Source: Amycolatopsis sp. NBC_01480 (GTDB lineage: Bacteria; Actinomycetota; Actinomycetes; Mycobacteriales; Pseudonocardiaceae). From it: 64,000 bases of DNA. Below are positions 6,864 to 56,275 of this stretch, piece after piece; the first letter of the stretch is position 1; every line of letters begins with the position of its first letter. The notes below the pieces were generated by a model, which made no database searches, had not been told where the DNA came from, and was given only the letters and a program-made list of their open reading frames with translations. The DNA is taken from positions 4,836,001-4,900,000 of the forward strand of contig NZ_CP109442.1 of assembly GCF_036227205.1 (NCBI RefSeq). Reading direction: 5' to 3'. Position numbers and translations under genes: made by a program.

Positions 6864-7176
6864 CCACGAGCTCCACCAGGCGGGGAATTATCTGGCCGCC
6901 GTTGGGGAGATCCAGCTGGCCGCCACTGGGGAGAACATCCGGCCGCCTACGGGGAGAACAAACTGGCCATTGACAGCCCGGTTCATCGTTGACGCAAGCA
7001 CGATCGACACGGGCGCGCGGTGGCCTCAGTCGAGGCTGCCTCTGACTGTGCACCCACGTGTCGTTGCCACGTGCTCGCCACGCGGTATGGCTCGGCGCTC
7101 GATTCGATGCACGTCCACGTGATCAGCTTCAGGTAGGGATCTGGAGCGTGTCGCGTTGCCACGGGGAGAGCAACCG

Positions 7177-22300: not shown

Positions 22301-25300
22301 CACGGACGGGGTCGTGCGACCGACATCGAAATACGGACACGACCCGGCGGGCAACCTGCTCTCCGAGATGGACGCCACCGGTCAGGTCACTCGCTACCGC
22401 TGGAGCAGCGACGGGCTGCCGACTCGCGCGGCCCGGGTTGTCCCCGCCAGCGGCACTACCGCGGAACGCGAAGTGGAGCTGTGGACCCGCGCTTATGATC
22501 AGCTGGGCAACGTCACGTCCGAGGTCGCGGCCGCCGGCACACGAACCACGACCAGCAGCTATTCCGTCGCGGGCCACCTGACCGACCAGGTCCTCGACCC
22601 CACCGGTGTGCGTCGCGCCGCCCACTACACCTACGACCAGTGGGGCCGCCCGATACAGGCCACGCTGTCGGACCAGTACCGCAGCGAAACGACCAAACTC
22701 GGGTACGACGACGGCGGGCGGCTCACCGAAACCCGCGTGGTCGCGTCGACCGGTGACCTGGTGACCACGAAGACCTACGACGAGTACGGCCGGGTGCTGA
22801 CTATCACCGATCCCCGGGGCGCAGCCGGGACCCCGGAGGCCTTCACGACCAGTCTCCGCTACGACGAGACGGGCCGCGTCGTGGAGGAGCGCGGCCCGCC
22901 CCACGAGGTCGAGGACTACAACGAGGCCGCCGCCACGATCAGCTCGATCACCACGTATGGCTACAACGCGTTCGGGGAGCAGGAGCACCTGCGAGACCCG
23001 CGCGGAGGCGTGACGACCGCCGAGTTCGACCGCCTCGGACAGACCCTCGCAGTGCACAGCCCGACCTACACTGCCCCCGGCGGCGCCCCGACCGACGGGG
23101 TGGTGCGGTACCACTACAACCTGCTCAACCAACTGGACGCGAAGACCGACGCGGTCAGCGGGCTGGTGACCTACACCTACGACGCCTATGGCGACCTGAC
23201 CAGCCAGACCGGCCCGAAGGACGGCGACAAGACGCCGGTCACCCGCTACGACTACGCACCGGGCGGCCTGCTGAGCCGGATGACCGGCCCGACCGGGGCA
23301 GTCGTCGACTTCGCCTACGACGCCTTCAGCCACGTCACCGCGAAGACCAGTGTGGTCCGCGTCGAGGGCTCCGAACCGGTCCGCTACAGCACGACGTTCG
23401 TCTACGACGACGCCGGACGCCTGATGTCCCAGACCGATCCCGACGACGTGGTCATCCTGTATGGCCACAACGGTGCGGGAGACACGACCAGCGTCGATCC
23501 CGGCCGCGGCAAGATGACCTACCGCTACGACTTCGCTGGCAACCTCGTCTCCCAGAGCGACCAGTTCAACCGGACGGCGGCCACCACTTACGACGACGCC
23601 GGTCGGCCTACTCAGACGAGCGTCTTCGGCGCCGGGCCGGGCCAGCAGCTTCCCGGTCCCACAACCACCTATGACGCGGCCGGGAACGCGATCACCATCG
23701 TCACCGGTGAAGGGCGCCGCAGCGAACGGACCTACGACTCGGCTAACCAGCTGCGCTCCATCACCGAGCACCCCGACCCGGACACGACCCTGACCACCTC
23801 CTTCGGCTACGACGCCGCCGGCAACCGCACCCGGGTCACCGACGCGGAGGGCAACACGACCTGGCAGACCTACACCCCGTGGCAGCTGCCCGAACGCGAG
23901 ATCGACCCGCCGACCGCCACGTTCCCCGCCGAGGCCGACCGCACCTGGACCACCGGCTACGACCCGTCCGGTCTGCCGAACACCGAGCAACGCCCGGGCG
24001 GAGTCACCGTCAGCCGCGTCTTCAACGCGGCGGGCAACCTCACCAGCGAAACCGGCGCCGGCCCGAACACCCCTGCCGCAACCAGAACGCTCGGCTACGA
24101 CCCGGCCGGTCGAGTGACCTCCGTCATCGACCCTGGCGGCACCCAGACGTTGACCTACGACGACCGCGGCCTGCTGCTGCACTCCGAGGGCCCCGCGGGC
24201 GCCTCCACGTTCGGCTACACCGCGGCAGGGCGAACCAGCGAACGCACCGACGCCAGCGGCACCTCCGACTTCTACTACGACCAGGTCGGCGACCCGTTTT
24301 TCGAGACCTACGCCAACGCCGGAGCAGTCACCACCCATTACAACGACGACGGCAGCATCGCCACACAGGACATCAACAACGCCACACGCACACCCAGCTA
24401 CGACGACTTCGGCCGCACTACCGGGCACACCCTGTCCGCCAACGGTGCCCCCGTCGACACGTTGACCTACACCTACGACCGTGACAGCAAGGTCACCAGC
24501 AAGACCAGCACTGCCGACCTCACCTACGGCGGGACCTACCGCTACGACGGTGCCGGCCGGCTGAAGACCTGGACACCCGCGGACGGTGCACCCTCGCAAA
24601 CCTACCGGCTCGACGGCGTCGGCAACCGGCTCACGACCACCAGCACCGCGACCGGTGCCAGCCCGGTCATCACCGAACACTCCACATTCGACACCCGCAA
24701 CCAGCTGCTGTCCCGTGAGTTGCCCGGCCAGTCCACCACGACCTACGACTACACGGCGCGCGGCACCACCGCCGGACGCACCACCACCGACGCCGCCGGC
24801 TCCGCCGTGTCCGCCTCGACCGTGTTCGACGGGCTCGACCGGATGGTCAACGACCACGGCATCGGCTACACCTACGACTCACTTGACCGGATCGCCAGCC
24901 GTAACAACGTCTCCTTCGGCTACGCCGGCGGCGAAGACAACCCCGTCCTAGCCCCCGCCGCCGACCCGGCACAGCAGGAAACCATCACCCGCGGCCCCGG
25001 CGGCGCAGCCACGGGCGTGAGCAACTCGGGCGGCTCGAACCTGACCCTGCCCGACAACCACGGCGACATCCGAGCACTGCTGGGGGTCGGCAACACCTTC
25101 GAGGGCACCCGGTCGTTCACCCCGACCGGCGAGTCCCGTGCCGCCAGCGGAACCACGACCGCGGCAGGGTTCCAGGGCGACTGGACCGACACCGGCACCG
25201 GCTCGGTCTGGATGGGCGCCCGCTGGCTCGACCCGCAGAGCGGCCGTTTCACCAGCCGTGACAGCAGCGCGCTGTCTGCAGAGAACGCGGCCGGCACGAA

Positions 25301-35363: not shown

Positions 35364-36257
35364 TTAGGACGCAGGCGACCAGGACCAGGGGCGGGGCCCG
35401 TTCCGGCCGCGTAGGCAGGTAACACGGAGTCCGGCTTCGGGCTGAGCGCGGGGGTTTTCTGCGGCGTGTTGGGCGAGGTAGCAGGTCATGCGGAGTTCGC
35501 GGATGTCTCGCAGAAGCGCGAAGCCGTCCCAGGTGGTGACGTCGTGGCCGTAGCGGTGGCAGAAGTCGCGGTAGTCGGCGGCGGTGATCCAGGCGAAGCT
35601 GGTGTGTTTGATGGCGGTGGAGACGAGGTCCCATTCGGGTGGGCCGATCGAGGCGCGTTCGAGGTCCAGCAGCACGACCTGGTTGTCGTTGGTGGCGACG
35701 ACGTTGCCGACCCAGGCGTCGCCGTGCAGCACGGTGTGCGGCAGGCCGGCGGGCAGCTGGTCGTAGCGGTCGCGCAATGTGGCGAGGTGGTGGTGCAGCC
35801 AGGGCGGTCGTCGTCGGTGAGGCTGGTGGCGGCGGTGATGCGTTCTTCGAGCCGGACGAACGGCTCCAGCGCGGAGAACGGGTGCTAGCCACTGACGACG
35901 GGCAGGTCGTGCAGCCGGCGCAGAGCCGTTGCGACTTGAGCGGGGGTGCCGTTGTGGTGCTCGGGCAGCTCGTGCCAGAAGGTCACCGTGCCCGTGCGCC
36001 TCAATGGGTTGGCCGAGGTCGTCGAGGGCACGGACGGCGGGGATGTCGTGGTCGGCGAGCCATCGGGCGATGCGGACTTCCCGGGCAGCAGCGGCGTGCT
36101 GGCCGGAGCGGGCGATGCGGGCGACGATGCCACCGGGGAGCCGGAGGATCGCGTTCTCCCCGAGCCGGATGGGCTCAGCGCCCCGCGCGTCGATCCCCGC
36201 CTGGTCACAGGCATCGCGCAGCACCTTTCCGGCCTTCTCAGTTCCGGTCGTGGTCAC
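35364..36257 (-). pseudogene. APH/choline-kinase-like phosphotransferase, broken
   Basis: The N-terminal part is normal (I-R-L-G-E-N-A-I-L-R-L-P-G-G-I-V-A-R-I-A-R-S). After G-Q-P-I-E-A the frame is wrong until about 35800. The correct middle lies in another frame (T-V-T-F-W-H-E-L-P-E-H-H-N-G, then A-L-R-R-L-H-D-L-P-V-V-S-G) and contains an in-frame TAG at 35886-35888 before H-P-F-S-A-L-E-P-F-V-R. The C-terminal half again reads well, with the catalytic H-G-D-A-W-V-G-N-V and L-L-D-L-E-R-A. Two frameshifts and one stop inactivate it. Aminoglycoside-phosphotransferase-fold kinases occur in RiPP clusters, so it may once have belonged to the adjacent locus. Confidence 0.75.
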
Positions 36258-36618
36258 GACGCGGCGACCACCGTGTGGATGCGCTGGCGCAACGCGGCGA
36301 CCTCGGGCGTGCGGCAGTGGCGGTGGGCGTAGCAGGACAGCTCGCGCAGATCGTCGGTGGCCCGGCGGGAGCGGACGGTGCCCGCGGTGTCGAGTGCGGC
36401 CTGGCTGATGACGGCGGCTTCGGCGGGGTCACCGGTGGCCATGGTCAGCGTGGCCAGCTTGGTCTGGGAGATCGCGCGGGAGCGGGCGTAGGCGTCGGTG
36501 TGCCCGGTGAAGGCATCCGAGAGCCGGGCCGCGGCCTCGCCCGGCCGGTATCCGTGAACGGCGAGGTCGAACAGGGCGTGGCCGGTGTCGCCGTCGAGCT
36601 GGCCGCGGACTGCTACTG
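36254..36618 (-). pseudogene. C-terminal fragment of a HTH/TPR regulator
   Basis: A frame without its own start runs from the methyltransferase stop: H-A-L-F-D-L-A-V-H-G-Y-R-P-G-E-A-A, then D-A-Y-A-R-S-R-A-I-S-Q-T-K-L-A-T-L-T, then P-A-E-A-A-V-I-S-Q-A-A-L-D and a final V-A-A-L-R-Q-R-I-H-T-V-V. This is the usual C-terminal tail (helical repeats) of large actinobacterial XRE-type regulators. The DNA-binding front half is absent, so it is a deletion remnant. It overlaps the phosphotransferase start by four bases. Confidence 0.55.
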
Positions 36619-37374
36619 CGGCTTCCGCCGTGCTGAGGTCCCCGCAGGGTCGTACGTGGCGACGAAGTGTGCGGTGGAACCGGTGAGTTGGCCGATGTGG
36701 TTCTGCGGATCGGTGAACAGCGCCGTGGCGCGGAATCCGGCGTGGGTGGCGTAAAGCTCGAGTTCGCGGGGGAACAGGATTCGGCGCCGGATGTGGTCGG
36801 TGTCGGTGGTGCCGTTGTCGTGGTGCCAGGTGCGGTGCAGGGTGGCGATCTGGGTGCGGGCGTCCCAGCCGTGCTGGGTGGTCACGTCGGCGTGGATGCC
36901 GGCGGCTTCGATGCGGCCGCGGGTGGGTGTGGTGGTGTGGGTGGGGGCGATTTGGGTGACGATGATCAGCAGGGTGCCGGGGTGGGCGTGGGCGGTGAAG
37001 GTAGTGAAGGCGGCTTGGATGTCGTTGTTGTGGTGCAGGTAGGCCAGGGAGTTGCCGAGGCAGAGGATCGTGTCGAAGGTGCGCTCGAGCCGGATGGTGC
37101 GCAGGTCGCCGACGTGCAGGTCCAGTTCGGGGTGCTGGTGGCGGGCGTGGTTGATGAGTGCGGGCTGGAGATCGACGCCGACGCGGTCGTGGCTGTGGGC
37201 GAGTGCGGCGAGGTCGCGGGCGGTGCCGCAGCCGAGGTCGAGCACGCTCCCCGCAGGACCGGGCCCGTGGTCGTTGATGAGGCGCTGGCAGGTGGTGGCG
37301 GTGGTGCTGTCGTGGGTGAGGGCGTCGTAGAGGTCGGGGCGCCGGTAGGCGATGTTGTGCTCGGCCAGGTTCAT
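36613..37374 (-). CDS. Class I SAM-dependent methyltransferase (RiPP locus)
   Basis: The start ATG 37374 overlaps the stop of the cyclase gene (ATGA), so the longer upstream frame is discarded. The product is 253 aa. Motif I is L-D-L-G-C-G-T-A-R-D at about residues 45-54, followed by V-G-V-D-L-Q-P (motif II acidic residue) and L-C-L-G-N-S-L-A-Y-L. The C-terminal half is beta-rich, with R-R-R-I-L-F-P-R-E-L-E-L-Y-A. The family transfers methyl groups from SAM to small molecules or peptides. Its coupling to the cyclase gene makes the peptide product the likely substrate, which is inference. Confidence 0.8.
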   Translation of the reverse strand: MNLAEHNIAYRRPDLYDALTHDSTTATTCQRLINDHGPGPAGSVLDLGCGTARDLAALAHSHDRVGVDLQPALINHARHQHPELDLHVGDLRTIRLERTFDTILCLGNSLAYLHHNNDIQAAFTTFTAHAHPGTLLIIVTQIAPTHTTTPTRGRIEAAGIHADVTTQHGWDARTQIATLHRTWHHDNGTTDTDHIRRRILFPRELELYATHAGFRATALFTDPQNHIGQLTGSTAHFVATYDPAGTSARRKPQ

Positions 37375-38933
37375 GCGACCGGCGCGGGGTCGGGGGTGAG
37401 CAGGGAGCGGAGGCCGACTTCGAGGGCGAGGGTGTCGCACAGCACGGACGGCACGGTATCGCTCTGGTGCGCGTCGCGCACGGTGCGCTGGAGCGCGTCG
37501 GGGTCGATGAAGCCGTGGTCGGTCAGCAGCATGCCGTCGCCGAGCAGGCGGTTGGCGAGGGGGAGTCCGTGGTGGCGCAGGCCGTGTTGCATGAGGTCCC
37601 GGAAGTTCTCCGTGCGTTCGGGGTGGGTGACCGAGCGGGGGAGACCGGCACGGGTCAGGAAGTCCCGGTAGAGCTTCTTGCCGCGGCGCATTTCGAGCGG
37701 AAGTTGTTCGGCGAACCGCACCAGGCGGGGGTGGGTGAATGGTGTGACCGGCCAGATTCCCGCGCGCAGGTAGGCGGGGTGGTGGATCGCGAACCCCATC
37801 AGGGTCGGTGTCGGCAGCACGGCCGACGGCGCCAGGTTGTCATCGATCGTAGCCAGGGCGTCGCGGGCGCGGGGCCCGAGCCAGGACACCTCGGCCAGGC
37901 TCTGGGGCGGTGGCGGGGGTAGTTCGTCGGGGCGGGGTGCCATGATCTCGTCGCCGCCGTTGCCGGTCAGCATGATCGTGACCCCGTGGCGGGCGGCGCG
38001 GTCGGCAAGGGCCTCGAACGCCTCGCGGTAGAACTCGCCGCCGGGATCGTGCGCAGCGCCGCGGGCGCGGATGCCGCCGGCGCAGAATGGGGCATGCTCG
38101 TGCGCTCGCAGGACATCGTCGGTCGCGCGGACATGCTCGGCGATCGTGAGCCGGCGGCGGTGCTGCTCCGTGCCGAGGGCTCCCTCGATGAGGAGCCCGA
38201 AAGTCCGCAGCGCGGGCCCGGCGGGCTCGTGTGCGGCGATCGCGACGGTGGCGGAGTCCAGGCCGCCGGACAGTTCCAGCCCCATCAAGGCCCCGCCGGC
38301 GCGCCACGGATGGATTGCCTCGGTGAGCAGGTGGGCGAGCGCGTCGAAGGGGTCGGCGCCGGAGCGCAGTTCGCGGGCGCGGGTGACGTGTTCGGCTGGG
38401 GGCGGGTAGGTGAGCTGGAGGCCCGCGGTGGTGAACGTCGCGGTCGCGCGTTCGGTCAGCATGGTCACGTCGGTGAACAGGGTGTCGCTGCTGTAGCGGT
38501 GCCGCCGCGTCAGGGCACGGGCCACGGCACGATCCCGCAGAGACGAGGACCGGAGGAGACGACGTAGCGCGGGTAGGTCCCACGTGCCGTACAGGAACTC
38601 GCCCTCAGCGGCCAGGTACAACGGCACTGTGCCGCCGATGCCGGCGCTGATCGTGATCCGTCCCGGCTGCAGATGCAGGACCACCGCGTCGCCGCGGGCA
38701 GCGCCGTGTGTGCCCTTGCGGCCGGGTTCGGGAGGCGTCGGTCCCGCCAGGGTCACCGGGCTGGCGAGGTCACGCACCAGGATGGTGGTGGTGTGCTGGG
38801 CGTGGTGGATCTCGTTGCGCAGAGCGGGATGGGAGATCGGCTGGACCCAGCTGCCGCCGCACCGCCACCGGTCGTGGTCCCCATGCCAGGCTGCTCGGGC
38901 GAGGTCGCTCAGCGCCAGGCGGAACGAGAGCAT
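37371..38933 (-). CDS. Asparagine-synthetase-like macrolactam cyclase
   Basis: The product is 520 aa. It lacks the N-terminal Cys nucleophile of glutamine-dependent asparagine synthetases (it begins M-L-S-F-R-L), but keeps a degenerate N-terminal glutaminase-like fold. The ATP-pyrophosphatase signature L-S-G-G-L-D-S-A-T-V is at about residues 221-230, with L-T-G-N-G-G-D-E-I-M later. This is the build of lasso-peptide cyclases (AlbC/albusnodin-ikarugamycin-type macrolactam cyclases), which adenylate a side-chain carboxylate of a peptide and close an amide ring. A 41-residue gene lies directly upstream, with a strong hairpin between. The leader peptidase and RRE partners of lasso systems are not present nearby. 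Confidence 0.82.
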   Translation of the reverse strand: MLSFRLALSDLARAAWHGDHDRWRCGGSWVQPISHPALRNEIHHAQHTTTILVRDLASPVTLAGPTPPEPGRKGTHGAARGDAVVLHLQPGRITISAGIGGTVPLYLAAEGEFLYGTWDLPALRRLLRSSSLRDRAVARALTRRHRYSSDTLFTDVTMLTERATATFTTAGLQLTYPPPAEHVTRARELRSGADPFDALAHLLTEAIHPWRAGGALMGLELSGGLDSATVAIAAHEPAGPALRTFGLLIEGALGTEQHRRRLTIAEHVRATDDVLRAHEHAPFCAGGIRARGAAHDPGGEFYREAFEALADRAARHGVTIMLTGNGGDEIMAPRPDELPPPPPQSLAEVSWLGPRARDALATIDDNLAPSAVLPTPTLMGFAIHHPAYLRAGIWPVTPFTHPRLVRFAEQLPLEMRRGKKLYRDFLTRAGLPRSVTHPERTENFRDLMQHGLRHHGLPLANRLLGDGMLLTDHGFIDPDALQRTVRDAHQSDTVPSVLCDTLALEVGLRSLLTPDPAPVA

Positions 38934-38953
38934 GTCGGGTCCCTAAGGTTGGT

Positions 38954-38985
38954 GCGGCTCGGGCAGCGGAAGCTGCCCGAGCCGC
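38954..38985 (-). terminator. Perfect 14-bp hairpin between precursor and cyclase genes
   Basis: Arms 38954-38967 (GCGGCTCGGGCAGC) and 38972-38985 are perfect complements with a 4-base loop. It falls in the 70-base gap after the small precursor gene and before the cyclase. Such hairpins allow much more precursor than enzyme transcript by partial termination or by protecting the short mRNA. No U-tract follows, which fits attenuation rather than full termination. Confidence 0.75.
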
Positions 38986-39003
38986 AGTGGGTGTGGCGTC
39001 CGG

Positions 39004-39129
39004 TCAGCTGGCGCAGTGGTCGCCCTTGTTGTTGCCGTCGGCGTCGCCGGGCATCTTCGGCGTGTAGAGGCTCTCCGTCGAGGGCACATCGAGCACCAGG
39101 TCTCCGGTGAACATCGCGTCCAGGTCCAT
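39004..39129 (-). CDS. Putative RiPP precursor peptide, 41 aa
   Basis: ATG 39129 is preceded by AAGGAG at ideal distance. The peptide starts M-D-L-D-A-M-F-T-G-D-L-V-L-D-V, an acidic leader-like segment with hydrophobic Leu/Val, continues P-S-T-E-S-L-Y-T-P-K-M-P, and ends G-D-A-D-G-N-N-K-G-D-H-C-A-S. A Gly/Asp/Asn-rich tail with one Cys, next to an asparagine-synthetase-like cyclase, suggests a core for macrolactam formation between an amine and an Asp side chain. It does not show the usual lasso T-x-G/C core start with Glu/Asp at position 7-9, so the exact chemistry is open. It is too short for routine gene callers. Confidence 0.72.
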   Translation of the reverse strand: MDLDAMFTGDLVLDVPSTESLYTPKMPGDADGNNKGDHCAS

Positions 39130-39339
39130 CTCGACTCCTTCGTGTACTGAACCCGCGGCGAGCGGGGTGGGCCCGCCGTGGTGAACGCGCCGGTCGACGC
39201 GCTCACCTCATTCCACCAGCGGTTTTGCCGCTGTTCGAGCCCGCATGGTGGGCGGGCGGTACCCGAATCGTGGACGGTGTGGGGACGGGTGGCGGACTTC
39301 GGCACCTGCGGGGCATCCGGGCTCGCTTACTGTGTGCGT

Positions 39340-40818
39340 ATGGCTGGTTCCTCCGATGCGTTCCGCTCGCCGAACGAGGTTCTGATCGCCCTGCGGGCTG
39401 CGCAGGCCCTGTCTCAGCAGGAGCTGGCCGGGGAACTCAACCGGCTGGCGACCACCCAGCACCACCGGCACTTGACGCTGACGAAGAAGTCGGTGTACCG
39501 GTGGGAGTCCGGGGAGACCGAATCCCCGAAGCGGTTCTATCAGCGGCTGCTCGCCGAGTACTTCGGGGTCTCCATCACCGAGCTCGGGTTCCACCGTCCC
39601 CAGCACCAGCCCGGCCGGTCCCTCGACATCGACGGGGCTGCCGTCGCGCCGGTAACGCCGGGCCAGGACCCGGATGTCGTCGAGGACCGGCGGCGGTGGG
39701 TCGCGGTCCGTACCGCGCTCGGCAGTACCCGGCGGGCCCTCGCGCTCGTCGCCGAGGGCCTCTACCCGGACTATCGTGTCGCCGGGCTGGAACACACCGG
39801 CGTCATCGCCCGGTCGGACTGGATCCCGGCGCTGCCCGTGCCGCTGGCTGACGTGGCGCTGAGGCTGGACGTCGACGCAGCCCGTCCCGTGCTCACCGGC
39901 GGCGAGCCCGAGACCGCGCCGGCGCGCCCGCTAGCCAACCCTGCGCACCGTTTTCGCCGCTACCACGACGCGATCCGTGAACTCGCCGCACCGCGATTGT
40001 TCGAGAACAGGTTGTGCTTCCGGCTGACCGGCCTCGACTGGTCGGCACCCACGATCCGGATGACCTTCGGGCACATGGGCTTTTTCGACTCGATGGACAC
40101 CAACGAGGCCCTTGCCCACGAAACCGCCCTGCACCACCTGGCCAGAGATCAGCACGAGCAGGTGATCACCACCAAACCGTCGTGGCGCAACCTGGCGTTC
40201 CGCAAGCTGATCGCGGACCCGTTCGACCTGTCCCGCCGCCCGCTGATGGGTGCCGTCGGTACGCTCACGATCCGCGGCGGCGAATCCCCCAGCATCGTGC
40301 TGCACCAGCGAGACGGCGGCAGAGTCGCCGGCGGCGGGGGCATGACCCACCTCATGCCAGCCGGGATCTTCCAGCCCTCCAGCGTCCTGCCCGCCGCCGT
40401 CGCCGAAGACTTCTCCCTGTGGCGCAACATTGAACGAGAATTCGCTGAGGAACTGCTCGGGCACGACGAGTACGACGGCAGCGGGCACCCCATCGCCTAC
40501 AGCGACCTCGAACCCTTCGCCACCCTCGATGACGCCTACCGTCGTGGCGACATCCAGGTGTGGTGCCTCGGTGTCACGCTCGACGCGCTGACCCTCTGCG
40601 GGGACATCCTGACCGTCGCCGTCATCCAGCCAGGCCTCTACGACACCCTGTTCGCCGGCGCCGTCAGCTCGAACTCCGAAGGCACGGTCTCGACCCACGC
40701 CCTCCCCTTCGAGGAAAACACCCTGCGCGAATTGTACGAACACGGGAACCTCTCACCCGGTGCGGCCGCAGCGCTGCATCTGGCGTGGACTCACCGCGCG
40801 ACCCTCTTTCCCCGATAA
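39340..40818 (+). CDS. HTH regulator fused to Nudix-like domain
   Basis: ATG 39340 opens M-A-G-S-S-D-A-F-R-S-P-N-E-V-L-I-A-L. The product is 492 aa. Residues about 9-72 form an XRE-type helix-turn-helix (A-A-Q-A-L-S-Q-Q-E-L-A-G, then K-K-S-V-Y-R-W-E-S-G-E). The C-terminal 300 residues are unusual: G-H-M-G-F-F-D-S-M-D, then V-G-T-L-T-I-R, then G-G-G-G-M-T-H-L-M-P-A-G-I-F-Q-P-S-S and I-E-R-E-F-A-E-E-L-L-G near residue 365. The last element resembles a Nudix box R-E-x-x-E-E-x-G. It is divergent from the precursor gene (210 bp between starts) and probably controls it, sensing a nucleotide-like or small ligand. Nudix activity is inference. Confidence 0.7.
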   Translation: MAGSSDAFRSPNEVLIALRAAQALSQQELAGELNRLATTQHHRHLTLTKKSVYRWESGETESPKRFYQRLLAEYFGVSITELGFHRPQHQPGRSLDIDGAAVAPVTPGQDPDVVEDRRRWVAVRTALGSTRRALALVAEGLYPDYRVAGLEHTGVIARSDWIPALPVPLADVALRLDVDAARPVLTGGEPETAPARPLANPAHRFRRYHDAIRELAAPRLFENRLCFRLTGLDWSAPTIRMTFGHMGFFDSMDTNEALAHETALHHLARDQHEQVITTKPSWRNLAFRKLIADPFDLSRRPLMGAVGTLTIRGGESPSIVLHQRDGGRVAGGGGMTHLMPAGIFQPSSVLPAAVAEDFSLWRNIEREFAEELLGHDEYDGSGHPIAYSDLEPFATLDDAYRRGDIQVWCLGVTLDALTLCGDILTVAVIQPGLYDTLFAGAVSSNSEGTVSTHALPFEENTLRELYEHGNLSPGAAAALHLAWTHRATLFPR

Positions 40819-41151: not shown

Positions 41152-42237
41152 TCATGGGGCTCGTCTTCTCCGCCTACGGCGGCTGAACATGAGAACTCCG
41201 GCCAGGACGAGGACTGCGGCGAGGGCTGCTCCGCCAATCACGAGGAGCCAGTTCGGTCCAGGAGCGGCCGGCTCGAGGACGGGTATTCCGGAAGTGGTTG
41301 TGACTGGTGTGGTGAGTGCTCGTAACGGGTTGACAGTTCCGAATCCGAATTGATCGTCACGCTGGTTGCCGTCGTGGCGGTCGGCGGTGTTGATCATCTG
41401 GCGGGTGACTTGTCCTGCCGTCATGCTCGGGTGTTGTGACCACAGTAGTGCGGCGGTGGCCGCTACGTAGGGGGCTGCGTAGCTGGTGCCGTCACCGTGC
41501 AGGTAGCCGCCGTGGTCGTTCGCGGAGCGGATGTCCACGCCCGGGGCGGCCAGTGTGGTGTGCGGTCCGGAGGCGCTGCTGGGCCAGAACTGGTTGCCGG
41601 AGTCGATACCGCTCACTGCGACGACTCCGGGAAAGGAGGCCGGATAGTTGGCGGAGTTTCCCGTATTTCCGTTGTTGCCGACAGCGGCGACGACCAGGGC
41701 ACCGCGCTGGAAGGCATGCTCGACCGCGGCGCGGACGTTCGGGTCGGGTGTGGTGGTTCCTAGGGAGACGCTGATGACCTGGGCACCGTGGTCGGCTGCG
41801 TAGATGATTCCTCGGGCCAATGCCACGGGCTCGGCCTGGGTGCCGGTCGAGACTCGGATGGGCAGAATCTTGGCCTGCGGTGCAAGTCCGAACATCCCAT
41901 TGCCCGCGGGGTTCTTTCCGGTTCCGGCGATGATTGCCGCGATCGAGGTTCCATGGGAATCGGAGGAGATGTCGGTTCGCCCGTCGTCGCCGGTCACGCC
42001 GACGAAACCCGTGCCGGGAAGGATTTGTCCCGCCAGGTCCGGGTGGTCGCTTTGGCAGCCAGTGTCGACGACGGCGACGGTGACGCCGTTTCCTTGTGAA
42101 TGCTCCCACACTTGATCCGCCCGCAAGTGCTGCTCGTCGAGTGGCCATTCGCCTACGTGTGAACCGGCTGCCGTCGCCGGTGTACCTGCTGCCAGCACTA
42201 TCCCAGCCGATAGCGCGAAGGCGATTATTCTGTGCAT
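41152..42237 (-). CDS. Mycosin-type subtilisin protease (type VII secretion)
   Basis: The product is 361 aa. It has a signal peptide (A-F-A-L-S-A-G-I-V-L-A-A-G-T-P-A-T-A-A-G), then a subtilase domain with D58 in A-V-V-D-T-G, H95 in D-S-H-G-T-S-I-A and S252 in G-D-G-T-S-Y-A-A-P. A C-terminal transmembrane helix (about 325-347) ends in a run of Arg. This signal peptide-protease-anchor layout is that of MycP proteases, which clip ESX substrates and stabilise the ESX channel. No eccB/C/D/E gene is in the window. It lies 20 bp after the SGNH gene on the same strand, so they may be one operon. Confidence 0.88.
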   Translation of the reverse strand: MHRIIAFALSAGIVLAAGTPATAAGSHVGEWPLDEQHLRADQVWEHSQGNGVTVAVVDTGCQSDHPDLAGQILPGTGFVGVTGDDGRTDISSDSHGTSIAAIIAGTGKNPAGNGMFGLAPQAKILPIRVSTGTQAEPVALARGIIYAADHGAQVISVSLGTTTPDPNVRAAVEHAFQRGALVVAAVGNNGNTGNSANYPASFPGVVAVSGIDSGNQFWPSSASGPHTTLAAPGVDIRSANDHGGYLHGDGTSYAAPYVAATAALLWSQHPSMTAGQVTRQMINTADRHDGNQRDDQFGFGTVNPLRALTTPVTTTSGIPVLEPAAPGPNWLLVIGGAALAAVLVLAGVLMFSRRRRRRRAP

Positions 42238-42257: not shown

Positions 42258-43022
42258 TCAGCAGACGGATGCGATGGCCGATGCCCAGCCCCAGTAGCCG
42301 CCGTATTCGATGAGGTTTCCGGCGTCGTTGAGGTGGATGTTGTCGGCGGTCCAGGGGCTGGGATTGGGGAGATTGGGGTTTCCGGCCGGGGGGACGTATT
42401 GGCGGAGGTCGATGAGGGCTTCCTGGGTGTTGACGGCGGTGTTGTAGATCTGCTGGGCGTAGGAGTCCCAGGTGTAGTTTTCGGTGCCGGCGTAGGGGTT
42501 GGGGGTCCACTTGAGCTGTGGGTAGATGGACAGGAGGATGGTGGCGCCGGGGGTGGCGGCTTTCACGTCGTTGACGACGGTGGTGAGGTTGGCGCCGAAG
42601 GTGCTGGGGGTTACTTGGGACCAGAATTCGTTGCCGCCGAGGTCGATGATGATGAGGTTGGGTTTGGTGGTGGTGATGTCGGCGAGTGCGGCGGTGGTGT
42701 CCGGCCAGCGGCCTCCGGTGAGGTAGTCCATGGCCATTGCTCCGTTGTGGGAGTGGTTGGTGGTGACGGTTCCCCATTGAGAGGCGAGGCTCAGGTTGAT
42801 TTTGGTGGTCCAGCCGTAGGTGGTGGGGCGGTAGGTGTCCGCGTCGGCGGGGTAGCCGGTGGTGCCGTAGCCGGTGTCGGCGGAGGTGCCGAGGATCGCG
42901 ACTTTGTCGTGGGTGGTGCACCAGCTTGCGTCGGTGGTGGCCGCGTCGGTGGGCGACGTGCCGGCAAGTACGGCCACGAGCGCTGAGGTCAGGGCGGTGG
43001 CGAGTACGGCGATGCGTCTCAT
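42258..43022 (-). CDS. Secreted SGNH/GDSL hydrolase
   Basis: The product is 254 aa. A signal peptide (A-V-L-A-T-A-L-T-S-A-L-V-A-V-L-A-G-T-S-P-T-D-A) is followed by the SGNH core. Block I reads I-L-G-T-S-A-D-T-G-Y-G, with Thr in place of the usual Asp of GDS. Block III is L-I-I-I-D-L-G-G-N-E-F-W (GxN). The catalytic Asp-His is at D-N-I-H-L-N-D near the end. The family hydrolyses esters of lipids or sugars at the cell surface. It sits between a BMP-like gene and mycosin on one strand. The substrate cannot be read from the sequence. Confidence 0.82.
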   Translation of the reverse strand: MRRIAVLATALTSALVAVLAGTSPTDAATTDASWCTTHDKVAILGTSADTGYGTTGYPADADTYRPTTYGWTTKINLSLASQWGTVTTNHSHNGAMAMDYLTGGRWPDTTAALADITTTKPNLIIIDLGGNEFWSQVTPSTFGANLTTVVNDVKAATPGATILLSIYPQLKWTPNPYAGTENYTWDSYAQQIYNTAVNTQEALIDLRQYVPPAGNPNLPNPSPWTADNIHLNDAGNLIEYGGYWGWASAIASVC

Positions 43023-43830: not shown

Positions 43831-43914
43831 GTTGCTCCTGGTGGTGTGGCCGTGTGAGATCCGTTCCGGGTGCAACTCCATGAGGGAGCGGCCCGTGGGT
43901 GGAGGGGCGGGCCG

Positions 43915-46900
43915 ATGGCTATTCCGGGGCGCTGGGCGAGACCTGATCGAGGCGTCGGCAGGCCGTTCGGGTGGCGTGTGCTGTCGCTGGTGGTCGCCGT
44001 CGTCATGGTCGTCTCGGTGGGGGGCCAGTCGGCGTGGGCTTCGCCGGCGCCATCGTCGCCGCTGACGCCGCAGCAGCGGTCGGGCTCGGCGGCGGGGGCG
44101 TCAGATGCCGCGGGTTCGGCGCTGGGTTCGACGAAGAAGGGCGCTTCGCCGGCGACGCCTGCAGGTGCGGCGGCGGCGGCGGACACGCACACGGCGTCGC
44201 CGGATTCTCGTCTGTCCAATGTGAGCACGCCGGCGAACGCCCAGCCGGCAGCGTCGGGGCCGCGCAGTGCGCCTGCTGCGGTGGGGGACGAGATCGTTGC
44301 CGACCGGACGGCGACGAGGTCGGTGTTCAAGAATTCGGATGGGACGCAGACCGCGAAGGTCTATCCGCGGCCGGTCCACTACCGCACCACGACCGGCAAC
44401 TGGGCGGACATCAACACCGCTCTGGCCCAAGGCGACAATGGACGGTGGGGGGAGAAGGCCGATTCGGCCTCGACGACGTTCGCCGCGACGGCCGACGATC
44501 CGGCCTTGGCATCGGTGCCGGTGGGCCCGGGGCAGAGTATTGCGTTCGGGTTGCAGGGCGCGGCACACACCACGGGGCTCGCGTCGGGTTCCACGATCAC
44601 GTACCCGGGGGTGGCGGCGCACGCCGACCTCAGCTACGTGGCCACCGCGAGTGGCGGGGCCAAGGAGACCTTGACGCTCGCCAGCCCGGATGCGTCGGAT
44701 ACGTGGGTGTTCCCGCTGACGCTGTCCGGGGTGACGCCGTCGCTGGGCAGCGACGGCAGCGTCGTGTTCACCAATGCGGCCGGTGCGGTGGTGGGCACGA
44801 TCGCGCACGGGTTCATGCGGGACTCGAACATCGACCCCCGCTCCGACGAGGGCGTGTTCTCCACCGGAGTCACGTACTCCCTGACGACCGTCGGTGGCCG
44901 GCCGGCGCTGCAGGTGAGTCTCGATTCGGCGTGGCTGCACGACGCATCCCGAGTTTTTCCCGTGCAGGTGGATCCGTCAGTCGGGAACCAGCAAGCCGGC
45001 GGGTCGACCTATGTGATGTCGCCATTCAACAACGACTACAGCGGTAGCGCCGAACTCGATGCCGGCACCTACGACGGCGGGGCGCACGTTGCGAACTCGT
45101 ACCTGGGATTCGATGTCAGCGGCTTGAACAACAACTACATCAAGGCTGCGACGCTGAATTTGGACGAGATCTGGTCGTATTCGTGCCAGGCGCGTCCGGT
45201 GTATGTCTCGCCGATTACCTCGGGCTGGTCGGTCGGTGGGCAGAAAACCTACCCGTGGGTGTCGATCGGCGGCGCGATCGGCAACAGGGACCTGGCGGTC
45301 GGCCACGACAGCGGTTGCCCCGGGCCTGCGTGGGTGTCGATCGACCTGGGTGACAATCCTACCGCCGAGGGCACGAAACTGATCGAGTCGTGGACACACG
45401 GCGGGGCCAACCATGGCCTGGCCGTCACCGCGGACAGCCACGACACTTACGGGTGGAAAAAGTTCGACAGCGTGAACTCCCCGAATCCGCCGTATTTGTC
45501 GATCACCTACAGCCCGTACGGCGCCTCCTACAGCGCACCGGTGAACTACGTGCAGCCGACCGGGACCGCGAGCGGGTCGCAGCAGGTCACCGTCACGAAC
45601 CTCGGCACCAGCACATGGACAACCGCCAATAATCACTTGTGGTACCAGCTGTACGACCTGAACTGGAACAACCTGCACATCACCAATCCGCCCGATCCGT
45701 GGACGAATCTGCCGGGATCGGTGGCGCCGAACCAGCGGATCACGATGACCGGCACCATCGGCCCGGTCACGCCAGGCCAGTACTACCTGTGCTGGGACAT
45801 GTTCAACGGCACCACGTCCTTCAACATCAGCTATGGCGTGGACTCGCCCTGTGAGCTGATCAACTCGGCGAACACCCCACCGCAGATCGACACGGCCAGC
45901 CCACCGTCCAACGCGGTGCTCTCGACGCTGCAACCGCAGCTGTTCGTCACCGGGCACGACCCGGACAACTACCCGGGCAAGGGCATCACCTTCGACTTCC
46001 GCGTCTACTCGGTGCCCGCCGGCGGGGGAACCCCGGCGCTGGTGGTGGATTCGGGGGCTCAGACAAGCGGCAATTACCGTGTACCGACCGGGAAACTCGC
46101 CTGGAACCAGTCCTACTACTGGACGGTGTCGGACAACGACACCGTGGGATCCTCGGCATGGTCGACGCCGGCGTACTTCTCCACAGCGGTCCCACAGCCG
46201 CTGATCACGGCCCACATAGGCGCGAACACGGGCAAGCAGAACTTCGACCCCGGCGTCGGGGACTACACCAACAGTGCCACCGACGCCAGCGTCGCCACTG
46301 CCGGTCCCGCGCTGGCGATCATCCGGTCCTATAACTCGCTCGATCCGCGCACCGGCCTCTTCGGCACCGGCTGGTCCACTGTGTACGACATGGTCGCGAG
46401 CCCGGACGCGGACGGCTCCGGCAATGTCGTGGCCACCTACCCTGACGGCCATACCGTCCGGTTCGGACTCAACCCGGATGGCACCACCTACACCCCGCCG
46501 CAGGGCACGTACGCCACCTTCGGCGCGCTCTCGGGCGGCGGCTACACCCTGACCGCGCGGGGTGGCTCCACCTACGCCTTCGCGCACCAGGTCGGCGCGA
46601 CCTGGCGGCTGACCTCCATCACCGATGCGGCCAGCCGCACCCAGACGCTGGCCTACGACGCGAGCGGCAACCTCGCGACCGTGACCGACGTCGGCGGCAA
46701 CCGGGCGCTGCACTTCACGTGGTCGGGTGGGCATGTCGCGACGGTCAGCACCGACCCCGCCACCGCCGGCGGGTCGCCGCTGACTTGGACCTACACCTAC
46801 GGCGGCAGCACCCTGACCACGGTCTGCCCGCCCACCTCGAGCACCGCGTGCACCGGCTACTCCTACACCACCGGCCCGGCTCCCGGGTCGCATTACCGCT

Positions 46901-49900
46901 CCACGGTGCTCGATGCCCAGCCGTATGCCTATTGGCGCCTGAACCAGGCCTCGAGCGGCACGACCGCGGTCGACGAGGTCAGCGCGAACCTCGGCGCCGA
47001 CAACGGGGCGTTCACCACGGTGTCGCCGAGTGATTCGACCCCGCACCCGGGCTCGCCGAGCGCCTCGAGTTGGTTCAACGGCGCCGGATCGCTGCAGCTG
47101 CCCAACAATCTCGTCGCGTCGGCGACCTATGCGAGCACCCAGCTGTGGTTCCAGACCACGCCGAACGGCCCGGCCGGGGTGCTGCTGTCCACCGGGCACA
47201 GCGCGATCGGTGCCGCGAACCCGAACCAGGGCGCGATGCCCATGCTCTACGTCGGCACCGACGGCAAGCTCTACGGCCAGTTCTGGACCGGCAGCGTCGC
47301 TCCGATCGTGTCGGCGAACAAGGTGAACGATTCGGCGTGGCACCAGGTGACCCTGGTCGGCCAGGGGGACACCCAGGCGATGTATCTCGACGGCGTGCTC
47401 GTCGGCACCCGCGCCGGGAACCTGTCCAACACCGACCCGATGAACTTCGTCGGCGCGGGCTACGTCAACAGCAACCCGTGGGTGAACGGGCCCGCCGCCG
47501 GGTGGAGCCACTTCACCGGCAACATCGCCGATGTCGCCTTCTACACCCACCCCCTCGGCGCCCCCGCGGTCATGCAGCAGTACGCGGCCGGAGCTCAATC
47601 CACCGCGGAGCTCACGTCCATCACCACCCCGGCCGGCAACACCCACGCCCGGGTCGTCTACGACAACGTCCTCGACCGCGCCACCCAGGTCACCGACCAG
47701 TACGGCGGCGCGTGGACGCTCGCGCCGCCGAGCTCCAGCGGATCGTCGGCGCAATACCGCGGCGCGGTCTATGCCAGCAACCCCACCGATTTCTGGCCCT
47801 TGACCGACACCACCGGAACCCAGGCGGTCAACCAGAACCCGACGAGCGCGATCAGCGCGACCGCCGACGGCGACGGCGTCTACGCAGGGGTCACTCTCGG
47901 GCTGCCGGGTCCGATGCCGACCACCGGTGACACCGCGGTCTCGTTCAACGGCACCACTTCCAGCCTGACGATTCCGGTGCAGAGCACCGCCTGGACGGTG
48001 GGCGGCAAATCGCTCGGCCTGTGGTTCAAATCCTCCACCGCAGGCGGAGTGATCACCGGCTGGGGCGGCAATGCGCTGCTCTACATCGGCACCGACGGCA
48101 AGCTGTACACCTGGTACGGCAGCGGCTACCTCAACAGCCCGGGCGCCGTCACCGACGGCAAATGGCACTACGTCGTGGTCTCCCAGACTGCGGACTTCGC
48201 CCAGAACAGCATCTCCCAAACCGAATTCCTGGACGGCGCCGCCACGGCCACGGCGACCGCTCCGATCATCAACGCGCCCGGCCTGCAGACCGCCACCATC
48301 GGCTCCGGCCCCTGGGGCAGCGGCGCTCCGGCGAACAACGCCGGGGCAAACCCGGCCGGCCACTTCACCGGCTCGGTCGCCGACGTCGCCTTCTACAACA
48401 CGCCCCTGACCGCCGGCCCCGTCAGCGGGCTCTACGCCGCGGCGCAGACCGCGAACTCCAGCCCCACCCCGGCCACCACCGCCACCGTCACCGACCCCGG
48501 CAGCCACCAGCTGTCCTACCGGTACGACCCGCACAACGGCTCGAGGCTGATCGCCGCGACCGACGGGCTGGGCAACACCACGCACTACACCTTTGACACC
48601 AACGGGTTCGCCAACACCACGACCTATCCCGACAGCAACTACGTCACCGTCACCCACGACCCGCGCGGCAACGTCCTGTCCCGCACCACCGGCGATTCCA
48701 GCGGCGCCACCGCGACCAGCTACGCCACCTACCCCGCCGCCGACACCTACGCGGTCACCGACCCGCGCAACGACGAACCGCTGACCACACTCACCGCCGA
48801 CTCCGCCGGCCCGAGCGACGCCACCTACCGCACCAGCTACACCTACAACCCCGCCGGTGCGCTGCTGACCACGACCGATCCCGCCGGGTCGGCCACCATC
48901 AACGCCTACACCGCCGGCACCGAACCCGCCGTCGGCGGCGGTACCGAACCCGCCGGACTCCTGGCCACCCAAAAGGATCCGCTCGGACACATCACCACCT
49001 ACAGCTACACCGACGCGGGCGACTCCGCCGGCGTGCTCGCGCCGTCCGGGCTGTCCACCACCAGCACGTTCGACGCTCTCGGCCGCAAGCTGACCAGCAC
49101 GCAGACCTCGGACACGTTCCCGAATGGCGTCACCACCGGCTACGCGTGGGACAACCAGAACCGGCTGAGCACGCAAACCGGGCCCGCCGCCACCGACGCG
49201 GTCACCGGCACCACCCACACCCGGCAGACGAGCTACACCTACGACGCCGACAGCAACCTCCTCACCCAGGCCACCGCCGACACCACCGGCGGCGACCCCA
49301 CCCGCACCACCACCAACACCTACAACCCCCACGACCAGCTCGCCACGACCACCGACCCGGCCACGCGGCAGACCAGCTACGGCTACGACAGCTACGGCCA
49401 CCGCACCAGCACCACCGACCCGGCCGGCAACACCTACACCGACAGCTACGACGCCGACGGCCACCACACCGGCACGACCCTGACGAACTGGACCGGCGAC
49501 CCGAACAACCCGATCGCCGCCACGAACCTCGTGCTGGATTCCCGCGCCTACGACCCGGACGGGCTGCCCGCGTCCGACACCGACGCGATGGGCCGGACCA
49601 CCCGCTACACCTACGACAACACCGGCCGGCCGCTGTCCGCTGTCCTGACGAACTACCACGACGGCCACGGCACACAGGTCCCGGTCAGCGTGGCCACCGC
49701 GTTGTACGACCCGGCCGGGCACCCCACCTCGCAGTTCGACCTGTCGTCGGCAGCCGGGGCGGCCACGAAGACCTACGACCCGGCCGGCCGGGTCACCACC
49801 AGCACCGACGCCGACGGCCACGTCACGACATTCACGTATGACGCGAACGCTCAGGTATCGACGACGACGGTCGCCAACGGCAGCGTGAACGAGGAAACCG

Positions 49901-52900
49901 ACTACGGCTACGACAGCCTCGGCGACCGCACCTCCACGACCGTGCACAACGGCGCCACAACCCTCACCACCACCGCCACCTACGACGAGCGCGGCGCCCT
50001 GACCGCCACCACCGACCCGCGCGGCACCGTCACCGGAGCCGACCCCGCCGCCTTCACCACCCGTTACACCCACGACCCCGCCGGCCGGGTCATGACGCTC
50101 ACCGGCCCGACCGTGAACACCGAAACCAACGGCGGCACGGCGACCGCGGTTCACCCGATCACCGAGTACGGCTACAACACCTTCGGCGATCAGACCACCG
50201 CCTCCGACCCCGATGGCAACATCACCACCAACACCTACGACGCGGACTCCGAACTGCTCGGCGTCTCCCAACCCGCCTACACACCACCCGGCTCCACGAC
50301 GTCGATCACCCCGCTGACGACCTACACCTACACCCCTCTCGGGCAGCCCGCCTCCACCACCGACCCGCTCGGCCACACCACCACCTACACCAGCGACCAG
50401 CTCAACCACCGCGTCACCACCACCCAGCCTGCGGTCGACGGCACCGCCCCGATCTCGCACGCCACCTACGACACCGACGGCGAACAGCTCTCGGCCACCG
50501 ACCCGACCGGTGCGCAAACCCAAGCCACCTACGACGAACTCGGCCAGACCCTCACCACCACCGCGCTGGTCCGCCAACCCACCCCCGCCGCCGACACCAC
50601 CACCTACACCTACGAGCCCACCCAAACCACCAGCCCCGACCCACTCGGCCAGCCCTTGTCGGTCACCACTCCCGGCGGGCAGAAAACCCAGCTGGGCTAC
50701 GACAAGCTCGGCCAGCTGACCTCCACCACCGACCCCCTCGACCACACCACCCGCACCACCTACGACGCCGACGGCAACATCACCCAGACCACACTCCCGG
50801 ACGGGTCCGCCACCACCGCGACCTTCGACCCCGCCGGCCGCCACCTCGGCACCGCACAGCTCGACCCCGACGGAAAAACGCTGGCCGCGACCAGCGGCAC
50901 CTACGACCCGGCCGGCAACCTCGCCACCAGCACCGACCCCAACCAGGCCACCACCACCTACACCCACGACGCCCTCAACATCCTCACCTCCCGCATCGAC
51001 CCCGTCACGACCAGCACGTCCATCACCACCAGCTACGGCCATGACGCCGCCGGCCACACCACCCGCTCCACCGACGGCGCCGGCAACGCCACCACCTTCA
51101 CCTACAACACCCTGGGGCTACGGGAATCGACGACCGCCCCGCACGTCGAGGGCTACACCACTCCTGCCGACAGCACCACCACCCTCGCCTACAACGCCGC
51201 CAGCCTGCCCGTGACTGAAACCCAGCCCGGCGGCGTCACCACCACCATCGGCTACGACCCGCTCGATCGCCCCAGCACCGAAACCGGCACCGGTACCCCC
51301 GCTTCCACCGCCGACCGCCACTTCGGTTACGACGGCGCCGGCCGGCTCACCTCGACCAGCGCGCCGGGCGGGGACGAGAACTTCACCTACGACGACCGCG
51401 GCAGCGTGCTGACCGCGACCGGTCCCGGCGGCGCAAGCGAGTCCGGGTACAACAGCAACGGCCAGCTGGCGACCCGCACCGACAAAGCCGGCACCGCGTC
51501 GTTCACCTACGACGATGCCGGCCGGCTGAAAACCGACACTGACCCACTGACCTCTGCCACCGCGACGTACTCGTATGACTCGCTCGACGAGCTCACCGGC
51601 ATCTCCTACGGCACCGGAACCGCCAGCCAAACCAACATCTACAACACCCAGCACCAGCTCACCAGCCAGACGCTCGCCGCGCCCGGCGGTGCGACCGAAG
51701 CCTCCATCACCTACGGCCACGACCCGGCCGGGCACACCACGAGCCAGACCACCACCGGACTCGCCGGCGCGGCCAGCAGCACCTACGGCTACGACCAATC
51801 CGGCCGCCTCACCTCCGCCACCACCAGCGGCGCCACCACGATCTACGGCTACGACGACGCGGGGAACCGCAACCAGAACGGCAGCACCACCGCCACCTAC
51901 AACGCCCGCAACCAGCTCGTCAGCCAAGGCGGCACAACCTACAGCTACACCGCCCGCGGCACCCTCTCCAGCACCACCACCGGCAACGCCACCACCAGCT
52001 ACAGCTACGACGCCTACAACCAGCTCGCCTCCGACGGCACCAACAACTACACCCACGACGCCCTCGGTCGCATGCTCACCAGCGGCCCCAACACTTTCAC
52101 CTACGACGGCACCAGCCCCACCCTCACCGGCGACGGCACCCACAGTTACAGCCGGGGCCCCGACGGATCACTCTTCGCCGTGGCCGGCGGAAACCAAACT
52201 GCGCTCGCCTTCACCGACGCACACGGAGACCTCAGCGCCACCTTCACCGCCGCTGGCACCACCCTCGACGGATCCACCAGCTATGACCCGTACGGTCAGC
52301 CCACCGCCCAAACCGGTACCAGTTACGGCCTGGGCTATCAGGGCGGCTGGACGAGCCCGACCACCGGCGACGTCGCCACCGCCTCCCGCTGGTACGACCC
52401 CAGCACCGCCACCTTCACCAGCAAAGACACCCAACTCGCCCTCGACGGCCCCGCCGTCACCGCCAACCAGTACGCCTACGGCGACGACGACCCCCTCGAC
52501 AACCTCGACCCCACCGGTAACAACTCCTGCACCCCACACCCGCGCGCACATCCGGCACCGCGGCACCGAACCTCTCCCGGCAGGTCGCACGGGCACGCCC
52601 CCACGCCCGGCGACAACCCCTCCTTTACCTACTACCCCCCGAACCGAAACTGGGAATACAACCACGCCAACGACCCGACGGTCAATTACCCGGCTTACCA
52701 GCCGCCGCCGAGTAGTTCGCCGTTTCCGAAACTTCCTGACATTCATTACGAAAATCCAGATCTTCCGATCGAATTTTACGATCCTATGGAGTTCTTCTTC
52801 CCTTTTTCTGCGGGAAGCTGCGACGAACCGGCCAATAGATCTGCGGCACCCAGGAAACCCAACGGCGAAGACAACATCTACAAGACCCCTATCAATGCAC

Positions 52901-55947: not shown

Positions 55948-56275
55948 GGATTCTCCTCGAGAGACGGAAGGTTCTGCTACCTCCGAGCAGAACGCGCTCG
56001 GTGCCGGCGAGAGCGGCCCAGGCCCGGTTGGTCGCGTGTGCGCCGGACCGTTCGGTGTCGGCATGTCCCCGGTCCAGCTCGCGAACCGGCCGGTGGGTGC
56101 GGTGTTGGTCCTCGATCCAGAGGACGCCTCGCGTCGGCCGTCGTGGAGTGGTGGCCGGTGGGCTGCTGGTGGAGGTGGGCGCACTGGCGTTGGTGTTCCG
56201 GACGGTGCTGTCGTGTTCTGGTGAGCTCGGGGTGCCGCGTCATGCACTAGGTGGCGCGGCACCCCGAGTTGTGGG

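Follow-up and report, generated by a model that had tools for sequence, protein, structure and literature searches.

A 64,000-nucleotide stretch of the genome of Amycolatopsis sp. NBC_01480 (contig NZ_CP109442.1, positions 4,836,001 to 4,900,000)—hereafter called "the window"—contains a compact locus, in which a gene for a 41-residue peptide, a gene for an asparagine-synthetase-family enzyme (the "cyclase") and a methyltransferase gene follow one another on the minus strand, with a regulator gene upstream and divergent. The host genome comprises 10.1 Mb on two contigs. The original prediction, made for the region 36613-40818 and thereby also covering the regulator, considered this to be a minimal locus for a ribosomally synthesized and post-translationally modified peptide (RiPP), perhaps a new type of macrolactam. 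The comparisons described below support that interpretation overall, and they point to a conserved Lys-Asp pair as the probable site of modification. The features of the locus are as follows, in window coordinates.

39135-39141, minus strand: Shine-Dalgarno (SD)-like GAAGGAG, read directly from the sequence, five bases before the precursor ATG
39004-39129, minus strand: precursor peptide gene, 41 codons, 41 aa, ATG start
38953-38986, minus strand: perfect hairpin with a 15-bp stem and a 4-nt loop, between the precursor and cyclase genes
37371-38933, minus strand: asparagine-synthetase-family enzyme, proposed Lys-Asp ligase (macrolactam cyclase), 520 aa; PF00733, 61.7 bits
36613-37374, minus strand: S-adenosylmethionine-dependent methyltransferase, 253 aa from the ATG at 37374; ATGA overlap with the cyclase
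39343-40818, plus strand: divergent helix-turn-helix-type regulator; weak HTH_31/HTH_3 matches, under the Pfam cut-off

The gene arrangement described in the original prediction is correct and beyond chance. The 41-codon gene has the ribosome site ascribed to it, and the methyltransferase gene starts within the end of the cyclase gene. The precursor stop and the cyclase start are separated by a gap of 70 nt, which contains the perfect 15-bp hairpin.

Does the short open reading frame (ORF) accompany the cyclase in other genomes, as the original prediction had proposed to examine? From 124 redundant loci, designated by L numbers, 22 were dropped when the cyclase start was missing or had fewer than 300 bases upstream, and 19 of the remaining 102 were dropped as repeats, leaving 83 unique loci. 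A strict rule required an SD site, an end between -130 and +60 relative to the start of the cyclase, and Lys and Asp separated by five residues (K-x5-D). Such an SD-led short ORF was found upstream of the cyclase in 71 of the 83 loci. The same rule was satisfied by 4 of 923 other open frames of the same loci (six-frame open frames of 300 or more codons, rather than all genes) and by none of 83 antisense windows, a control of different geometry with one pseudo-start per window. The short ORF is conserved together with the enzyme, contrary to the outcome that would have refuted the original prediction. Among the 12 loci missed by the rule, L080, L097, L098, L101, L115 and L119 do carry K-x5-D, in an ORF excluded by its start, its SD site or its length, the leader and the core of L051 lie in different frames, and L112 is masked; in L070, L075, L102 and L107, a short ORF with K-x5-D was not seen upstream of the cyclase. 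A frame difference between the leader and the core, due to a frameshift or a sequencing error, occurs about 200 bases before position 8001 in both L051 and L028.

Since the motif was the selection criterion, its count among the picked precursors is by construction. Two checks are less biased: a leader-only profile, trained on those leaders, and a database profile, which contains the Lys and Asp columns. The leader-only profile matches 73 of the 83 loci, and the sole match lacking a following K-x5-D is the frame-broken L051. The profile search of 5.8 billion proteins retrieved 60 peptides at E up to 10, including that of the window, and 59 of them, with 40 distinct cores, contain K-x5-D. The exception, P0137, has an E value of 4.8 and a tail resembling a frame change. 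The names shown for these peptides are hypothetical or uncharacterized protein.

In an alignment of 19 diverse precursors, Lys25 and Asp31 (window numbering) are the sole invariant positions, while Phe7 and Gly28 are nearly invariant. Many relatives share the leader motif LFxGxLxxxVP, which includes Phe7. The Gly at +3 is absent from the KAADTSD/KPQESSD group, indicating that the fixed pair is Lys and Asp, and not the turn. Because these two are the conserved residues, the GDADGNNKGDHCAS tail considered in the original prediction is probably not the core as cut, although a new macrolactam RiPP is still the best reading of the locus. The window precursor has GDHC close to its C-terminus, and a second acidic residue is usual in this region (GDHC, YDE, RFED), at a distance from the Lys that varies (e.g. 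+10 and +12 in cores of the GDxC type). The C-termini are diverse across the core types (AS, SK, EI, TAV, ED, RRN). The ratios of nonsynonymous to synonymous polymorphism (pN/pS), uncorrected and calculated from related sequences, are 0.22 (5 sequences), 0.31 (23) and 0.14 (9), which indicates that the precursor is under selection at the protein level.

Several precursors carry more than one core. Four KGTAGxDxQxRR units lie on one chain in the Acidobacteria locus L098, and the Sphingomonas locus L101 encodes three K-x5-D motifs on one chain, KGTAGQD twice and KRISGTD once. The Rubrivivax chain of L091 has two such motifs, and a single motif is present in Roseivirga L097 and in Pseudolabrys L094. 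As a separate observation, Sphingomonas L107 contains a second, distant family member at about 1180-1480, with P0075 as its best match. It is preceded by an ORF ending in YDAIFTGRGSGG, which lacks K-x5-D, and may represent a sister system whose core differs.

Hairpins are also common in the precursor-cyclase gaps. Perfect stems of at least 8 bp occur in 41 of 69 gaps, as compared to 2 of 69 when each gap sequence is shuffled once by mononucleotides, and the intergenic hairpin would fit a device giving more precursor than enzyme.

PF00733 is the only Pfam family over its cut-off in the cyclase, which keeps the SGGLDS and GGDE motifs and has the signature G-x-W-P-x-x-P. Cys at position 2, the glutaminase nucleophile, occurs in none of the 77 listed homologues, some of which are partial or have other starts. 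In a tree that also contained 20 PF00733 ORFs presumed to be lasso cyclases and five other PF00733 proteins of the host genome, the cyclase family forms one clade of 38 rows with a 100/100 split from both of these sets. The presumed lasso cyclases themselves need two changes to group, and one of them (L133) falls with AsnB. The cyclase scores 29.9 bits against the lasso cyclase model NF033535 and 47.2 bits against NF033561, while the respective cut-offs are 525 and 300. The predicted single-chain fold is nearest to TsnB9, carbapenam synthetase and beta-lactam synthetase, and also resembles AsnB, with identities of about 16% to the former three and 14% to AsnB. The beta-lactam and carbapenam synthetases close intramolecular amides, and their substrates are small molecules. 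A plain asparagine synthetase was rejected, as the enzyme lacks Cys2, belongs to a separate clade and coexists with the five other PF00733 proteins. A defence system was likewise rejected: PADLOC gave no match for the cyclase, the regulator or the peptide, and its match of the methyltransferase to mad2 (40.4 bits) covers the methyltransferase part only.

Next, we consider the helper proteins of lasso biosynthesis. As originally predicted, neither a leader peptidase nor a RiPP recognition element (RRE) is found nearby. No member of the peptidase family PF13471 is matched at E <= 0.001 anywhere in the host genome, which weakens, for the lasso peptidase, the suggestion that the partner enzymes are encoded elsewhere. 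The two PF05402 matches of this genome, at 6.70 and 7.56 Mb, are more than 1.7 Mb from the locus. No PqqD match was obtained among the 21 window sequences scanned, where RREs too divergent for the PF05402 model may escape, and no ATP-grasp match was obtained among the window sequences scanned. Among 34 other carrier genomes chosen, PF13471 is present somewhere in 21 and has no match in 13. Compared by contig or coordinates, the match in these 21 does not share the contig of the locus or is at least 290 kb from it, except in the L100 and L089 genomes: that of L100 lies about 5 kb off, beside its own canonical lasso cyclase, and the one weak match in the L089 genome (39 bits, G307:C63) may share the contig, about 30 kb off. 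Over the 13,114 ORFs of the 124 redundant loci, the peptidase profile matched once, in L100, while it recovered 20 of 20 positive controls. Membership in the canonical lasso systems was rejected, because the locus has neither a B2 peptidase nor a PF05402 RRE and the clade is separate.

The gene downstream of the cyclase varies with the core type. With GDxC cores, the methyltransferase was found downstream by model in 50 of 51 loci, and the 51st, L086, has it too, with a broken cyclase frame. With GSSD/YDx cores, a GNAT acetyltransferase lies directly downstream in 12 of 14 loci, and in the remaining two, L073 and L081, it follows the cyclase after about 50 nt on the opposite strand; the acetyltransferase Pfam match is shown for L082 and L083. 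A crude acetyltransferase model had also marked 17 GDxC loci and L051. These were refuted by a cleaner model built from ten checked seeds, which finds no acetyltransferase beside any of them and gives one stray match, 6 kb away in L027. With DQG cores, an ABC transporter is found in L089, with a homologue at about 51% identity in L118 and L119, and was not seen within the short flank examined in L015 and L024. According to the models used, no actinobacterial-type methyltransferase or acetyltransferase adjoins the enzyme in L080, L091, L094, L097, L106, L098 and L101, yet all seven loci keep K-x5-D. Among solved structures, the closest in sequence to the window methyltransferase are sugar-amine N,N-dimethyltransferases, at 65 bits; the cypemycin N-terminal methyltransferase is a weaker match, at 27 bits. 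Since methyl or acetyl transfer occupies the same slot, the two enzymes may both cap an amine. In two Gram-negative loci, a group-1 glycosyltransferase lies directly downstream of the enzyme (L102, 9596-11347; L099, 1399-3075). In L102, Cys-containing ORFs lie upstream (6898-8007 gave no Pfam match), with no recognisable K-x5-D precursor.

How would the cyclase act on the precursor? These comparisons of sequences show the gene pair and its conservation, the conserved K-x5-D, the separate clade, the lack of PF13471 and the exchange of partner genes with the core type. As in RiPPs generally, a ribosomal precursor with a leader and a core is conserved together with a putative modifying enzyme. 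We infer, with a probability of about 0.58, that the enzyme joins the side chain of Asp31 to that of Lys25 while the leader is still attached. The grounds for this are the two invariant residues, the presence of repeated cores, the lack of the peptidase and the fold. First, the enzyme would bind the 41-mer via its N-terminal half. Then, the side-chain carboxylate of Asp31 would be adenylated in an ATP-dependent manner, and the side-chain amine of Lys25 would attack the activated Asp31, producing a Lys(i)-Asp(i+6) lactam on the leader-bearing peptide. As the lactam would form on the uncut chain, neither a leader peptidase nor an RRE would be required. Finally, a general protease may remove the leader, and the methyltransferase—or the acetyltransferase, in the sister loci—may cap the new N-terminal amine; this final stage is the weakest of the proposal. 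A side-chain lactam is the reading that most simply accounts for the fixed Lys and Asp, the variable residues between them, the repeated cores, and the missing peptidase and glutaminase.

The main rival, which we consider doubtful, is a lasso-like ring: an unlinked protease would cut before Lys25, the alpha-amine of this Lys (now position 1) would be joined to the Asp at position 7 in a seven-residue ring, and the methyltransferase or acetyltransferase would cap the Lys side chain. It accounts for the same conserved Lys and Asp, and a PF13471 protein does exist somewhere in 21 of the 34 carrier genomes. Known lasso cyclases are members of this protein family too, with an acidic residue at positions 7-9 as the ring partner (PMC9266682). 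Albusnodin is known to carry an acetylated Lys side chain (PMC9266682), and the same modification is reported for triculamin and lariocidin (PMC13352647). However, the host and the 13 other carriers lack a PF13471 match, and the sole match within the loci stands beside a canonical cyclase of its own. Moreover, an alpha-amine ring would not need Lys at position 1, and yet Lys is kept where no capping gene adjoins, while each repeated core of L098 and L101 would require prior cutting. Both the lasso-like ring and the side-chain lactam predict a loss of water, but only the latter would proceed on the full-length chain.

An unlikely alternative is that the enzyme is an amidating enzyme or ligase: the activated group would be Asp31, Asp37 or the C-terminus, ammonia or a small amine would be attached to it, and Lys25 would serve only for recognition. 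The asparagine-synthetase-like TsrC, ScdTA and PesC indeed amidate or nitrilate the C-termini of RiPPs (PMC13060819). However, PesC uses glutamine nitrogen, although ammonia works too (PMC13060819), and Cys2 is absent here; in addition, the C-termini vary widely among the core types, and the fixed Lys-Asp spacing would be left unexplained. Even less probable is a lactam that links Lys25, or else the N-terminus, to Asp37 as the second acid, with Asp31 playing a structural role: such an acid is commonly present towards the C-terminus, but its distance from the Lys varies, while the Asp at +6 is fixed. It is very improbable that the locus is not a RiPP locus at all, with an enzyme acting on a small molecule and a short ORF that either serves as a leader-peptide attenuator or encodes some unrelated small protein. 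A hairpin does follow the short ORF, and beta-lactam synthetases with the same fold use small molecules; however, the ORF is under protein-level selection (pN/pS 0.14-0.31), the motif travels with the enzyme across phyla, the cores are repeated, and the core type matches the downstream enzyme.

In RiPPs, asparagine-synthetase-family enzymes are known to form lasso rings and to convert C-termini to amides or nitriles. According to a preprint of May 2026 (PMC13060819), the asparagine-synthetase-like RiPP enzymes with known chemistry are the lasso cyclases, TsrC, ScdTA and the preprint's own PesC. About 300 other RiPP-linked members are counted as uncharacterised, with lactam formation named as one possibility, and beta-lactamisation is also named (PMC13060819). 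TsrC, ScdTA and PesC, the last from the nitrilobacillins, share with the present system an asparagine-synthetase-family enzyme acting on a ribosomal peptide, and PesC probably acts before leader removal, as proposed here; they differ in targeting the C-terminus, in the case of PesC with glutamine nitrogen (PMC13060819), whereas the present family has no Cys2 and no conserved C-terminus. The lasso cyclases (NF033535, and NF033561 for the albusnodin/ikarugamycin family) share the enzyme family, an adjoining short precursor and, if our reading is correct, isopeptide chemistry on Asp. The present system differs from them by the separate clade, the absence of a B2 peptidase and a PF05402 RRE from the window locus, the Lys-x5-Asp precursor and, in some cases, the repeated cores. 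Graspetides also pair Lys with acidic partners and carry several cores per chain, but the enzyme here is a PF00733 protein rather than an ATP-grasp. Their side-chain macrolactone or macrolactam links (PMC13097080) would likewise resemble the lactam proposed here. Like some of the present loci, the clusters for albusnodin and lariocidin contain acetyltransferase genes (PMC11451635, PMC9266682). The beta-lactam synthetase, carbapenam synthetase and TsnB9 share the fold but little of the sequence, and asparagine synthetase B has the N-terminal Cys2 nucleophile that the listed homologues lack.

No description of the Lys-x5-Asp/cyclase family was found in open-licence full texts, peptide strings included, a search outside which most subscription papers lie. 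The family appears to be a class of modified peptide that has yet to be described, and we file it as a variant of RiPP biosynthesis that is near the lasso cyclases by enzyme family and, by the tests above, apart from them. We lean narrowly towards a broader proposal, a RiPP class in at least four phyla in which a non-glutaminase enzyme of the asparagine-synthetase family would staple Lys(i) to Asp(i+6) by a side-chain lactam before the precursor is cleaved, at one or more sites on each chain, without an RRE or a peptidase and with exchangeable methyl or acetyl capping of the N-terminus. If this is true, then a leader-tolerant Lys-Asp ligase with fixed spacing and variable residues between would be a practical tool for peptide stapling, and dispensing with the peptidase and the RRE would make the route simpler than that of lasso biosynthesis. 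The chemistry is testable with one co-expression, since the substrate motif is defined, the core consists of two genes and many of the host strains are named.

The enzyme occurs in 22 of 297 genomes of the host's family, the host's own counted and several as fragments only, and in 13 of 394 genomes of the host's class. A wider scan, taking the best 80 of 97 relatives, led to 79 named loci. Most are from Streptomyces, and others are from Amycolatopsis, Pseudonocardia and further actinobacteria. The non-actinobacterial carriers are Rubrivivax, Pseudolabrys, Sphingomonas, Yoonia, Roseivirga, and metagenome-assembled genomes of Acidobacteria and Gemmatimonadetes. The K-x5-D motif was found in Acidobacteria, Sphingomonas, Rubrivivax, Pseudolabrys and Roseivirga, and is repeated in three of these. 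The Gram-negative branch is rare, with 1 carrier among 247 genomes of the Acidobacteria phylum and 2 among 296 genomes of the Sphingomonas order.

An ORF resembling the divergent regulator occurs in only four other loci, irrespective of its position within them, and we therefore place this gene outside the core locus. In 13 loci, including Streptomyces loci such as L030, the strand opposite to the cyclase carries, about 1.9 kb upstream, an ORF of 418 aa that, judged by eye, resembles an XRE-type regulator.

Downstream of the methyltransferase, an APH-type phosphotransferase-family ORF (PF01636) lies at 35364-36257 on the minus strand, and a second one is present at 55015-56409, also on the minus strand. 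On the other side of the locus, a type VII secretion-associated mycosin protease is encoded at 41152-42237 on the minus strand (TIGR03921, 283.2 bits, above the cut-off), and is adjoined by the gene for a GDSL-type hydrolase (42258-43022). Two very long open frames overlap at 43870-53451 (plus strand, 3193 aa) and 44977-51057 (minus strand, 2026 aa), and the Pfam scan gave no match for the latter. Finally, the ORF at 19304-22498 (plus strand, 1064 aa) matches DUF6531 and the RHS repeat, and possibly encodes an RHS-type polymorphic protein.

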